Shown: positions 211 through 4,541 of the stretch, piece by piece
Position numbering within the stretch: position 1 is the stretch's first letter
Layout: every line of letters starts with the position of its first letter
From: Acetofilamentum sp.
GTDB lineage: Bacteria > CAIWAD01
Assembly: GCA_020726405.1 (NCBI GenBank)
Contig: DYSB01000009.1
Span: 1-35,640, forward strand
Length of the DNA: 35,640 bases
Reading direction: 5' to 3'
Notes under the pieces: model-generated
Databases searched by the model: none
Told to the model about the DNA's origin: nothing
Seen by the model: only the letters and a program-made list of their open reading frames with translations
Position numbers and translations under genes: made by a program

Positions 211-327
211 CTCTTCATTGGTTGTCAATCTCTTCGGTCAGCTTGAGCGGGAGCTTCCAGATTAGTGCGGCTGGACGGCACTTCTCGCGCGCTGAGGCGT
301 TATCCGTGCTCTTATTGGGGAGGGAGC

Positions 328-1308
328 ATGGAAGGTCCGCTTCGCCTGCTGGAGCATGTCAGTCAGGAACTGCGGAAGCGACACCGCAGCCCACGAACAG
401 AAGAAGCTTACCGCCACTGGATCCGTCAGTTCGTCCACTTTCACGAGCAGCGGCATCCGCGGGAGTTGGATGGCCGGGACGTGGAGGCCTTTCTGGGCTG
501 GCTGGCCACCACTCGCCATGTGGCGGCATCCACTCAGAATCAGGCCCTTGCTGCCCTGCTGTTCCTGTACAAGGTTGTGCTGGAGATTCCGCTGGGATCC
601 GTGGAAGCGTTCGCGCGCGCCCGCGTGCCGGATCGTCTTCCCGTGGTGTTTTCCATTGAGGAGGTAGGGCGGTTGTTGGAGCAGCTGCCGCGATTGCCCC
701 GACTGCTGGCCTCGCTACTTTACGGATCCGGTCTGCGGGTTCAGGAATGCATGACTCTGCGAGTCAAGGATGTCGATTTTTCCCGCCGACAAATCATCGT
801 GCGGCGTGGCAAAGGCGCCAAGGACCGGTCCGTGCCCTTGCCTTCCGCGCTGCTGGAATCCCTGCGCGAGCAATTGCGGCGCGTGGAGCTTCTGCACGCC
901 AGGGATCATGCCGCTGGTGTCCAGGTGCCGCTGCCGGACGACCTGCGTAGCAAGTACCCGCGGGCCAGTGGCGAGCTGGCCTGGATGTGGCTCTTCCCGT
1001 CATCTGTCACCCGCCCGTCCCCGGCCGGCGAGACCCTGCGCTGGCACCAGCCGCCCGACCGCCTGCAGCGCGCCGTCCATCTGGCCTTGCGCCGGGCCGG
1101 AATCCACAAACACGCCAGCTGTCACACACTGCGTCATTCCTTCGCCACCCACCTGCTGGAGGGTGGTGCCGACATCCGCACCATCCAGGAGCTGCTGGGC
1201 CACCAGGACTTGCGCACCACCATGATCTACACGCATGTGCTGGCCTTGAACCGCTCAGGTGCCCTCAGTCCGCTGGACCGCCTGGTCTTGACCCCGCTGG
1301 CGGAGTGA
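328..1308 (+). CDS. intI: integron integrase (IntI-type tyrosine recombinase)
   Basis: Catalyses recombination between attI and the attC sites of gene cassettes. The 326-residue protein has a SAM-like N-terminal DNA-binding domain (about 1-90) and the tyrosine recombinase catalytic domain: Arg in [25 protein letters not shown] and the nucleophile in MIYTH. What makes it IntI rather than XerC/D is the extra patch at about residues 200-223 ([12 protein letters not shown] then WMWLFPS), which corresponds to the IntI-specific insertion that binds extrahelical bases of folded attC, and a C-terminal SPLDRL as in IntI1. The ATG at 328 is preferred over an upstream in-frame GTG at 265 because GGGAGGGAG precedes it. 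An attI-like core lies upstream on the opposite strand. It is full length with no frameshift, so probably functional. Confidence 0.93.
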
Positions 1309-1457: not shown

Positions 1458-1531
1458 TGGGCGATACTGGGCTCGAACCAGTGACCCCCTGCGTGTAAAG
1501 CAGGTGCTCTGACCAACTGAGCTAATCGCCC
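1458..1531 (-). tRNA. tRNA-Val (TAC)
   Basis: A 74-nt cloverleaf with acceptor stem GGGCGAT/ATCGCCC and discriminator A. The anticodon stem CCTGC/GCAGG encloses TTTACAC, giving anticodon TAC. The T arm contains GGTTCGAGCC. CCA is not encoded. Its first ten bases are also the last codons and stop of the upstream DUF3098 gene. Confidence 0.95.
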
Positions 1532-1722
1532 TTGCTCTTCACAAGAATGGCCGCCGGCAGCACCACCAGGTAGGCGGCCAGCAGCAGCAGAGGCGACAGG
1601 GTCAAGGAGACGAAACCGTTGTGCGGGCCTTGGGCTGAGCAGATGAAGCCGATCAGCAGCAGCGCCACGCCCAGCAGAAACAGCAGATAGTTGACTCTGC
1701 CGAACGGCAGGGCGCTCTTCAT
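1522..1722 (-). CDS. DUF3098-like small membrane protein
   Basis: A 66-residue protein with two predicted membrane helices (about 12-30 and 38-60) and a short loop. The motif NYLLFLLGVALLLIGF and the second helix beginning at a Ser-Pro resemble DUF3098, a small inner-membrane family known from Bacteroidota and relatives; its function is unknown. The ATG at 1722 is preferred over TTG at 1743 because GGAG lies 7-8 nt upstream. A strong promoter (1751-1779) precedes it. Oddly, the TAG stop lies inside tRNA-Val: bases 8-10 of the tRNA are the stop codon, so gene and tRNA overlap by 10 nt and must share a transcript. Confidence 0.75.
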   Translation of the reverse strand: MKSALPFGRVNYLLFLLGVALLLIGFICSAQGPHNGFVSLTLSPLLLLAAYLVVLPAAILVKSKGD

Positions 1723-1824: not shown

Positions 1825-2598
1825 TCAAGCCTCGAAATCCAGCAGATCCCACTCGCGCCCCAGCTCGCGCGCGGCAGGCGTCAGCAGCATGCCGCGGCTG
1901 ATCCGGATCCGCAGTCCCTGCTCGCGCGCAGCCCGGATGTCCTTCTCGCTGACCAGGCGGCCCGTGGCCAGCCGGCCCGCGCCACCCTCGTTCAGTCCGC
2001 CGCCCAGCAGGCGCGCCGTGTCGCCCTCGGCCAGCCGCAGGGCGTGGGCGTCATCGCTGTCCAGCAGCAGCTCCAGTTCCCAGTCGTCGGAGACATGGAC
2101 GAAGATCTCGCCCAGGATGGCGTCGCGCACGGCTTCGCGCACCTCCGTGCGCCGCCGGCTGCGCAGGGCGCAGAGCACGCGGTCACCTTCCAGCAGGCCC
2201 AGCCGCCGGGCGTTTTCCCGGCTGCACGCCAGGCGGCGCGTCAGGCTGATCACACCGTGCTCCAGTTCCAGGTGGCCGCGCGGCCCCAGCAGCGTGATCC
2301 GCGGCGCGCCCTCCACATCGCCGCTGTGGCGCACCGGCGGTTCCAGACCCAGGGCCGTGGCCGCGCCCGCGGGACACTCCAGCCGCGACGGCCCGCCCAG
2401 TGGACCCACCACGGGGATGCCCGTCAGCCGGCCCAGTGGCGAGGCTGCGGCCACCTCCTGGACACCCAGGAAGCCCGCCTGCGCGCCCAGGGCCTGGCGG
2501 AATTCCAGCCGGGCATCCGCGCCGAAGAGCCGCGCGAAGTGCTCCTTGCTCAGGAACACGCGCGGCCCCAGGATCCGGATGCGAGGCAGCAGACTCAC
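1825..2598 (-). CDS. PduL-like protein lacking the zinc-binding histidines
   Basis: A homologue of PduL phosphate propanoyltransferase, which converts acyl-CoA and phosphate to acyl-phosphate in microcompartments. The fold is recognisable along its 257 residues: FLSKEHFARLFG near the N-terminus, PVVGPLG (62-68), PPVRHSGDVEG (88-97), then GVISLTRRLACSRENA (115-130) and LELLLDSDDAHAL (175-187). PduL binds two zinc ions through His pairs in RHVHLS, RHIHM and a His before IDTDEAN. Here these positions read R13/F15, R122/A124 and L178, and the usual Glu is Val or Gln. I infer a non-catalytic or structural paralogue. The GTG start is 6 nt after the hicA stop with AAGGA upstream. Its neighbour two genes upstream is the enzyme's usual partner dehydrogenase. 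Confidence 0.75.
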   Translation of the reverse strand: MSLLPRIRILGPRVFLSKEHFARLFGADARLEFRQALGAQAGFLGVQEVAAASPLGRLTGIPVVGPLGGPSRLECPAGAATALGLEPPVRHSGDVEGAPRITLLGPRGHLELEHGVISLTRRLACSRENARRLGLLEGDRVLCALRSRRRTEVREAVRDAILGEIFVHVSDDWELELLLDSDDAHALRLAEGDTARLLGGGLNEGGAGRLATGRLVSEKDIRAAREQGLRIRISRGMLLTPAARELGREWDLLDFEA

Positions 2599-2604
2599 CA
2601 GGCG

Positions 2605-2781
2605 TCAGTCCTTCAACAGTTTGAGTATGTGTTTAGCCAGACTTTCCTGGATTTCGCGATGTCGCGGAATGGGCTGACTGATCTTTGTGGTTGGGTTCTG
2701 ATACCAGTCATGTCGACCACCATGGCGAAGCAGCACACAGCCGGCCTGTTCCAGGGTTCGAATCAGGTCCAGGCGCTTCAT
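2605..2781 (-). CDS. hicA: HicA-type mRNA interferase toxin
   Basis: A 58-residue protein with the HicA dsRBD-like fold. It starts MKRLDLIRTLEQAGC and contains the signature HGGRHDWYQNP followed by QPIPRHREIQESLAKHILKLL. The catalytic His lies in the HGGRHD motif. HicA cleaves mRNA and tmRNA until neutralised by HicB. Its ATG overlaps the hicB stop as ATGA, giving translational coupling. The order is antitoxin first (hicB-hicA), as seen in some HicBA loci. The gene is complete and all signature residues are present. Confidence 0.92.
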   Translation of the reverse strand: MKRLDLIRTLEQAGCVLLRHGGRHDWYQNPTTKISQPIPRHREIQESLAKHILKLLKD

Positions 2782-2969
2782 GCAACCTTCAACTCCCCTG
2801 CGTGCAACACGTGGGGGATCTCACCGGAAACCAAGTCCTGCAGCAAGTCTCGCAGGTTCTCTTGCAGTTCGTCAAGGGTTTCCGCCTGGGTCCGATAGCT
2901 CGGAAACTCATCCAGCCAACCGATGAAGGCCGGGCCTTCTTGATACCATGTGAATTTGCGCGTTTCCAT
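2778..2969 (-). CDS. hicB: HicB-like antitoxin
   Basis: A 63-residue protein matching the short partial RNase H fold of HicB/UPF0150: a beta hairpin (FTWYQEGPAFIGWLDEFPSY) then the helix in TLDELQENLRDLLQDL. It binds and inhibits HicA. No separate ribbon-helix-helix DNA-binding domain is present, so autoregulation as in longer HicB proteins is not obvious. ATG at 2969 is chosen over TTG at 2984 because of the GGGAGCAAGGG stretch upstream. It begins 27 nt after the aldehyde dehydrogenase stop, so the TA pair is read with the metabolic operon. Confidence 0.88.
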   Translation of the reverse strand: METRKFTWYQEGPAFIGWLDEFPSYRTQAETLDELQENLRDLLQDLVSGEIPHVLHAGELKVA

Positions 2970-2996: not shown

Positions 2997-4541
2997 TCAG
3001 CACTTGAATTCCTTGACGATGCGGTCGATCTCCTCGTCGGACATCCCGCTCTTGCCGTACTGGTGCGCGGCGGTTCCGGGGATCGAAGTCGCGGCGCCGG
3101 CGCCGGCGGCCTGGGCCTGCACCTCGGTCTTGGGCCGGTAGCGGAACTGCTCGTCGTAGCCCCACTTCATCTCGGCGCCCTTGGCCGGCCCGTCCAGCGG
3201 GTTGATCTCCCAGGCCACGCGCTTGATGTTGACCAGGTGCAGGGGGCCAACGTTGTCGCTGGTGATGCTGCCGCCCCAGGTGCCCGGCCCCAGCGTCAGC
3301 GAGGGAATCAGGCCCGTGGTGTAACCGATGGCGCCGTGGGTGGAGGAGGAGTTGACGACAATGCGGAAGGCCGGCTTGTGCAGGCCGAACTCCATCACGA
3401 TGTCCGGGTCCTGGCAATGGATGGCGAAGGTGTGCCCCACGCCGCCGTACTCCAGGATGCGCGCGGACATGTCGCAGCCGGCCTTCCAGCCGTCCACCAC
3501 GTAGAAGCCCAGCACGGGACTCAGCTTCTCGCAGGAGAGCGGATCCTTGGGGCCCACGTCATCCAACAGCACGATCAGCGCGCGCGCGGCGGGGGGAATC
3601 TTGAGGCCGGCCAGGCCACCGATGTGCTGCGGGCTGCGCCCCACGATCTCGGGGTTCAAGTGTCCGCGCTTGTCCACCATCACGGCCTGCAGGCGGGCCT
3701 TCTCCTCGGCGGTGAGGAAGTGGCCGCCGGCGCGCCGCAACTCTTCCATCAGTTTGCCGGAGATCGGCCGGTCCGCCACCACGCTCTGCTCGCTGGCGCA
3801 GACCGTGCCCCAGTCGAAACTCTTGCCGGCGATGATGTCGCGGGCGGCCTTGGGCACGTCCGCCGTGCGGTCCACGTAGGCGGGCACGTTGCCCGGCCCC
3901 ACGCCGTAGGCCGGCTTGCCCGAGCTATAGGCCGCGCGCACCATGTCGCTGCCGCCCGTGGCCAGGATCACGCTGGTGAGCTTGTTGCGCAGCAGCTCCT
4001 GCGTCCCCTCCAGCGTGGGGATGGTCATGCACTGGACCAGGTCGCGCGGCGCGCCCACGGCGCAGGCGGCGTCGTGCAGCAGGCGCGCGGTCTCCTGAAT
4101 GCAGCCGCGGGCCTTGGGATGCGGGCTCAGGACGATGGCGTTGCGGCTCTTCAGGGAGATGATCGACTTGAAAATGGCCGTGGAGGTCGGATTGGTGCAG
4201 GGCACCAGCGCGGCCACAATGCCCATCGGCACGGCGATCTCGTGGATGCGGCGCCGCTCGTCGCGCGAGATGACGTCGCAGGTCTTCAGCGGACCCACGT
4301 ACTCCATCAGGTTTTTCGAGCTGAAGGTGTTCTTGACCGTCTTGTCCTCGATGCGCCCGTAGCCGGTCTCCTCAACCGCCATGCGCGCCAGACGCTTGGC
4401 GTTGGCCAGCGCGGCGGAGGCCATGGCATGGACCACCCGGTCCGTTTGGTCCTGGGAGAAATGCTTGAAGACATCCGCCGCGGCGCGGGCCCGCGTCAGC
4501 ATGTCCCGCACTTCCTGGATGGAGGCCAGATCTCGGTCCAT
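2997..4541 (-). CDS. CoA-acylating aldehyde dehydrogenase (PduP/EutE-like)
   Basis: Oxidises a short aldehyde to acyl-CoA with NAD and CoA, usually inside bacterial microcompartments. The 514-residue protein has the aldehyde dehydrogenase superfamily fold with [11 protein letters not shown], the nucleotide-binding part with [26 protein letters not shown], and the catalytic Cys at about 248 in [11 protein letters not shown]. After the catalytic domain comes an Ala/Gly-rich linker and a terminal amphipathic helix, [14 protein letters not shown]. This layout resembles the encapsulation peptides of microcompartment cargo, though no shell gene lies in the window. GAGGG precedes the ATG. It heads an operon with hicBA and a degenerate PduL homologue. 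Substrate (acetaldehyde, propionaldehyde or lactaldehyde) cannot be decided. Confidence 0.88.

Follow-up and report, generated by a model that had tools for sequence, protein, structure and literature searches.

PduL is regarded as a core CoA-recycling enzyme inside metabolosomes. In the enzyme from Rhodopseudomonas palustris (PDB 5cuo), Zn1 is bound by His48, His50, and Glu109 and Zn2 by His157, His159, and His204, while Arg103 touches the phosphate; the metal ligands of PduL have been reported to be absolutely conserved (PMC4784909). Metabolosomes of the sugar phosphate utilization (SPU) type are believed to break down deoxyribose phosphate derived from DNA (PMC4207490, PMC8217296). Because SPU loci of Marinimicrobia have been reported without PduL (PMC4207490), this type may tolerate losing its internal phosphotransacylase. 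EutQ of Salmonella is essential for encapsulation; association with the shell is a property of its helices H1/H2 (deletion of residues 9-41), and the encapsulation peptides of the cargo associate with H3/H4 (PMC12487888).

Here we describe a PduL homologue, psi-PduL, in which the zinc site has nearly vanished. It is encoded in a 35,640 nt stretch of DNA, the whole of which is called the window and to which all positions refer unless a locus is named. In the open literature (mostly without subscription papers), we found no earlier report of a PduL pseudoenzyme or of microcompartments in Delongbacteria.

Identity and fold of psi-PduL

The psi-PduL gene (1825..2598, minus strand) codes for a degenerate homologue of PduL-type phosphotransacylases with 257 aa and a GTG start; its reading frame has neither a frameshift nor an internal stop. 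The protein matches the Pfam PTAC domain PF06130 at 101 bits (cut-off 25) and PDB 5cuo with E=1.8e-20, and a profile search found it to be the sole PF06130 match in the window genome. Its AlphaFold model (mean pLDDT 91) agrees with 5cuo at a TM of 0.94-0.95 and an rmsd of 1.5-1.6 A. The barrel also shows a weak resemblance to p97 N domains (E about 0.003), to which we gave no weight. An encapsulation peptide is absent from the N terminus of psi-PduL, the first core strand starting the protein. In PduL, such a peptide is common but not universal.

Zinc site and substrate contacts

In the alignment with 5cuo, the six zinc ligands correspond to Arg13, Phe15, Glu74, Arg122, Ala124, and Leu178 of psi-PduL. 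Five of the six are replaced, and these are all five His (codons CGC, TTC, CGC, GCG, and CTG); an earlier note on this DNA, made from its letters, had listed the same changes to Arg, Phe, Arg, Ala, and Leu, and a proper alignment puts no His at any of these positions. Motif 1 (Arg13-Val-Phe15; 2554..2562, minus strand) replaces the Zn1 ligands His48/His50, and motif 2 (Arg122-Leu-Ala124; 2227..2235, minus strand) the Zn2 ligands His157/His159. The remaining Zn2 ligand, His204, is replaced by Leu178 (2065..2067, minus strand), a change private to the window species. The single retained ligand is Glu74 (2377..2379, minus strand), which corresponds to Glu109. The statement that the whole zinc site is replaced thus holds for the five His and is slightly too strong for the site as such.

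The contacts to the substrate are affected as well. Arg103 of 5cuo corresponds to Gly68, and most CoA contacts are gone, the equivalents of Lys70, Arg97, Leu99, His204, and Asn211 being changed and those of Gln107 and Gln74 (5cuo numbering) likewise lost. From 37 core positions which are conserved across canonical PduLs, psi-PduL keeps 24, compared to at least 81% in canonical members. The lost positions are mainly contacts to metal, phosphate, and CoA. Ser92 is retained, fold-type Gly, Pro, and Asp positions are mostly kept, and so is the fold.

The fact that ligands and contacts are lost while fold positions are kept makes it very likely that zinc-dependent catalysis has been lost. The evidence gives good support for a loss of zinc chemistry; the loss of catalysis we infer. 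Glu74, Ser92, and the His which relatives have at position 178 could still contribute to a residual ligand site or to a new one. By descent and fold, psi-PduL is to be considered a PduL; as it lacks the ligands that define the family, we avoid the name PduL enzyme for it.

Distribution in the phylum and selection

All six ligands are kept in each of the 82 aligned homologues examined outside the window's phylum. Within the phylum, five genomes were examined; each has one PduL homologue, which is degenerate in every case, and a PF06130 search found no intact pduL in the window genome or its four relatives. The substitutions of psi-PduL recur in part. Residues other than His also occupy the first four His ligand positions in three further genomes of this family (RVF/RRLA, RAF/RRLE, and RVF/RRLC), with Arg13, Phe15, and Arg122 invariant in the family's four genomes and position 124 non-His, but the fifth change (His204 to Leu) is restricted to the window species, its relatives retaining His there. 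In genome G004, which belongs to another family of the class, only His50 and Glu109 are lost from the six ligands (four of the five His are kept), and Arg103 is missing as well. Residues at the old site thus differ between the two families, and they are still changing within the genus.

In a tree of PduL homologues, for which the ligand columns were left out, the five phylum sequences form one clade (support 98/95). The order of ligand losses is uncertain because G004 is on a long branch. Chance, an assembly error, or a private pseudogene could be rejected because three further genomes share the first four losses while all outside homologues keep their ligands. PduL homologues from the phylum score 70-113 bits against PF06130. 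Full-length matches in two other phyla never score below 208 and 252 bits, respectively, lower scores being confined to fragments, and low-scoring PduL as a general event was thus rejected.

The psi-PduL gene is under purifying selection. Within the genus, pairwise comparison by the Nei-Gojobori method gives a dN/dS of 0.17-0.31; between genera, synonymous sites are partly saturated. In most pairs, dN/dS is higher than for the neighboring dehydrogenase gene. Homologues are thus selected as well, and these values, together with the conserved gene pairing described below, agree with the proposal of the earlier note that selection has lasted while the chemistry was lost, the loss of activity being deduced from the sequence.

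Gene neighborhood

Directly upstream of psi-PduL in all five phylum genomes, save for one insertion in the window, is the gene for an acylating acetaldehyde dehydrogenase of 514 aa (2997..4541, minus strand), a predicted metabolosome cargo which scores 600.6 bits with TIGR02518 (cut-off 620.1) and has the catalytic Cys conserved in an alignment with EutE. A predicted encapsulation peptide of 20 aa (3000..3059, minus strand) at its C terminus is conserved in the five genomes; it is amphipathic, follows a variable linker, and has the look of such a peptide, whereas EutE is devoid of one at that end. The dehydrogenase and psi-PduL genes are joined by an ATGA overlap in genomes G003 and G004. The insertion, a HicA toxin and HicB-like pair between the two genes (2605..2969, minus strand; PF07927 2.6e-11), is present in the window species only and missing from its relatives; the match of the HicB-like antitoxin is below cut-off. 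According to the gene lists, a small membrane protein of 66 aa (1522..1722, minus strand) is encoded downstream of psi-PduL and is its neighbor in three relatives, too.

Near the contig edge, the window also carries an integron integrase (265-1308, plus strand; TIGR02249 with 400 bits, exceeding the cut-off). Judging from a GTTRRRY-type core at 48-54, an array may be located beyond the contig; such cores are no commoner in the window than expected by chance.

Metabolosome genes of the genome

From its gene content, the window genome is predicted to encode a scattered SPU metabolosome. The shell domains PF00936 and PF03319 have four matches each, and the shell classes BMC-H, BMC-T, and BMC-P are all present, distributed over several contigs. 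The shell genes are accompanied by DeoC, phosphopentomutase, and an RnfC/PduS-like protein; DeoC (PF01791), with an encapsulation-like N terminus, adjoins BMC-P, and in G003 DeoC has a pyrimidine nucleoside phosphorylase gene beside it. Two RpiB (PF02502) are encoded in the window genome. Its SPU genes are spread over at least five contigs, and they are also separate in the better assembled genomes G002 and G003; a single main SPU locus holding enzymes and shell genes was not found in any of these three. A classical Pta is encoded in all five phylum genomes and acetate kinase in the three of the genus. Pta/AckA fragments on contig G000:C37, which have the appearance of a contaminant, were left out.

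Additional observations were made in the loci used for comparison. RpiB-like proteins in PduL/SPU loci from several phyla (L107, L004, L111, L126, L074, and others) have an IDGxG motif. The Asp of this motif occupies the position of the usual catalytic Cys of RpiB (CGSGIG), and the protein is possibly another altered enzyme of the compartment, as judged from this motif. Nine loci (L057:6213-8573, L059, L065, L078, L080, L084, L086, L101, and L134) code for proteins of ~780 aa with PduL as their C-terminal part; a domain scan, which covered L057, assigned the remainder of that fusion to a cyclic-nucleotide-binding domain and acetate kinase. A deoxyhypusine-synthase-like gene (L137:5782-6756) is located directly upstream of two BMC-P genes and also occurs in G002.

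The C-terminal module

Residues 211-257 of psi-PduL (1828..1968, minus strand) form a C-terminal module, two helices in the AlphaFold model, which is homologous to the shell-binding N-terminal helices H1/H2 of EutQ. Residues 212-250 align with residues 3-49 of E. coli EutQ (hhalign 93.3%, E=2.8e-7), and a search with the module profile retrieves EutQs from Sporomusa (E about 1e-10). The hhalign alignment stops at EutQ residue 49, so that H3/H4 have no counterpart in psi-PduL, and a Pfam scan gave no match to a cupin domain. The module is also weakly similar to E2 peripheral subunit-binding domains (E about 0.1 for the best single domain); this was not used as evidence.

Identity in the module is higher than in the core for all 10 psi-PduL pairs, whereas among 21 pairs of module-bearing intact PduLs only three show this; the comparison covers 37 module columns from related sequences. 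These intact PduLs are seven proteins which keep their ligands and have the same module at the C terminus (L006, L069, L089, L115, L116, L118, and L133); in L089 and L115, a dehydrogenase gene is found just upstream. Other module-bearing proteins sit in BMC loci. A stand-alone module protein of 73 aa is encoded in the SPU locus L107. In another SPU locus, an 87-aa protein encoded beside shell genes (L126:14628-14888) consists of an encapsulation-like peptide and the module and, from this makeup, looks like a minimal shell-cargo adaptor.

The idea that the module is unique to psi-PduL within its genome had to be rejected, as weak matches turned out to be N-terminal extensions of the second RpiB. 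A second RpiB with an N-terminal module is encoded in all five phylum genomes (L177, L178, L179, L180, and L173), the match being weak in L173, and G004 being the genome in which it is weakest; on SPU RpiBs of other phyla, no N-terminal module was seen in the loci examined. Consequently, psi-PduL is not the sole possible tie to the shell, and the module may serve mere targeting. The EutQ-like module is possibly a general shell tie which moves between cargo proteins.

Possible roles of psi-PduL

We favor, with moderate confidence, the interpretation that psi-PduL was once a phosphotransacylase, has lost its zinc chemistry, and now serves an SPU-type (deoxyribose phosphate) metabolosome as an adaptor between shell and cargo. 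The beta-barrel core of psi-PduL, produced together with the acetaldehyde dehydrogenase, would most likely stay with the enzyme core, and the EutQ-like module would tie it to the shell. Acetyl-CoA would not be converted to acetyl phosphate by psi-PduL inside the shell; instead, acetyl phosphate could be made outside by the housekeeping Pta, which in the genus is accompanied by AckA. Encapsulation, binding to the shell and to the dehydrogenase, and this fate of acetyl-CoA are what we would expect from such an adaptor.

This adaptor interpretation is favored by the loss of ligands and contacts with the fold kept, by its recurrence in all five genomes and the low dN/dS, by the pairing with the dehydrogenase, by the homology to EutQ, by a module which is better conserved than the core and is borne by other proteins in BMC loci, and by the presence of SPU genes. 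It is weakened by the missing counterpart of the region (H3/H4) with which EutQ binds encapsulation peptides, by the module on the second RpiB, by the retention of Glu74, Ser92, and the relatives' His178, by the small number of columns in the identity comparison, and by a dN/dS that is mostly above that of the dehydrogenase. Since the zinc site is nearly all lost while the gene is maintained and carries a shell-tying piece, psi-PduL is probably a catalyst turned assembly part. The earlier note had suggested either a pseudoenzyme whose role is structural or regulatory or a protein with a new activity; this is supported, and the EutQ-like module points to the structural option.

A less likely role is that of a non-catalytic sensor, or of a protein which binds a new small molecule (a sugar phosphate or CoA) at the old site, the tail being a targeting tag. 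In one family, a conserved pair of Arg has newly arisen where the two metals used to be bound; this pair and the tail on RpiB would fit, but residues at the old site vary between families and within the genus, and nothing in the results points to a ligand or partner of psi-PduL. It is improbable that psi-PduL is still a phosphotransacylase which works without the two zincs, closer to the metal-free Pta, with Arg13, Arg122, and Glu74 holding phosphate and CoA. Although Arg13, Phe15, and Arg122 do not vary across the family, Glu74 and Ser92 are kept, and the gene remains beside that of an acetyl-CoA-forming dehydrogenase, the equivalents of Arg103, Gln107, Gln74, Arg97, and Asn211 are lost, mostly without a conserved new set, the ligands are invariant in all other homologues, and the genomes have a classical Pta.

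That psi-PduL is a relic in slow decay without a present role is very improbable and fits the selection data worst: a further ligand (His204) is lost in the window species only and dN/dS exceeds that of the dehydrogenase in most pairs, but dN/dS is well below 1, the frame is intact in five of five genomes from two families, the gene pairing with its ATGA overlaps is conserved, and so is the module, more than the core. Finally, it is hardly credible that an intact PduL was missed by assembly and psi-PduL is a divergent paralogue, since, although completeness is 92% for the window genome and 67% for G004, a single degenerate copy is found in each of the five genomes, two of which are 97-98% complete.

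Extending the adaptor interpretation to the whole lineage (two families, perhaps the phylum), we tentatively propose a deoxyribose metabolosome in which the CoA-recycling enzyme has become an adaptor between shell and cargo that no longer catalyzes; such an organelle would have no private CoA pool and would either exchange acetyl-CoA/CoA with the cytosol or use some other route to recycle CoA. A conserved lineage without the PduL ligands offers a natural way to ask if a metabolosome needs an internal phosphotransacylase and a private pool of CoA, and it suggests a route from a core enzyme to an assembly part.

Comparison with known systems

With the PduL in 5cuo, psi-PduL shares the fold, the domain order, the fold-defining Gly/Pro/Asp, Glu109, and Ser127, and as in PduL there is a genetic link with an acylating aldehyde dehydrogenase. 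It differs in being devoid of five zinc ligands, Arg103, most CoA contacts, and the N-terminal encapsulation peptide, and in bearing the C-terminal EutQ-like module. The module resembles H1/H2 of EutQ from the Salmonella/E. coli Eut system, shell binding being suggested by homology, but it is at the opposite end, fused to a PduL core, and lacks H3/H4 and the cupin. As in SPU metabolosomes (PMC4207490, PMC8217296), the genome codes for a DeoC-type aldolase, an aldehyde dehydrogenase, a PduS/RnfC-like protein, and shell proteins, and as in other SPU loci for an RpiB-type isomerase with the Asp motif; unlike in these, the genes are distributed over many loci and PduL is degenerate. The seven intact module-bearing PduLs have the same domain layout as psi-PduL, but all six zinc ligands are kept and the core is usually better conserved than the module.
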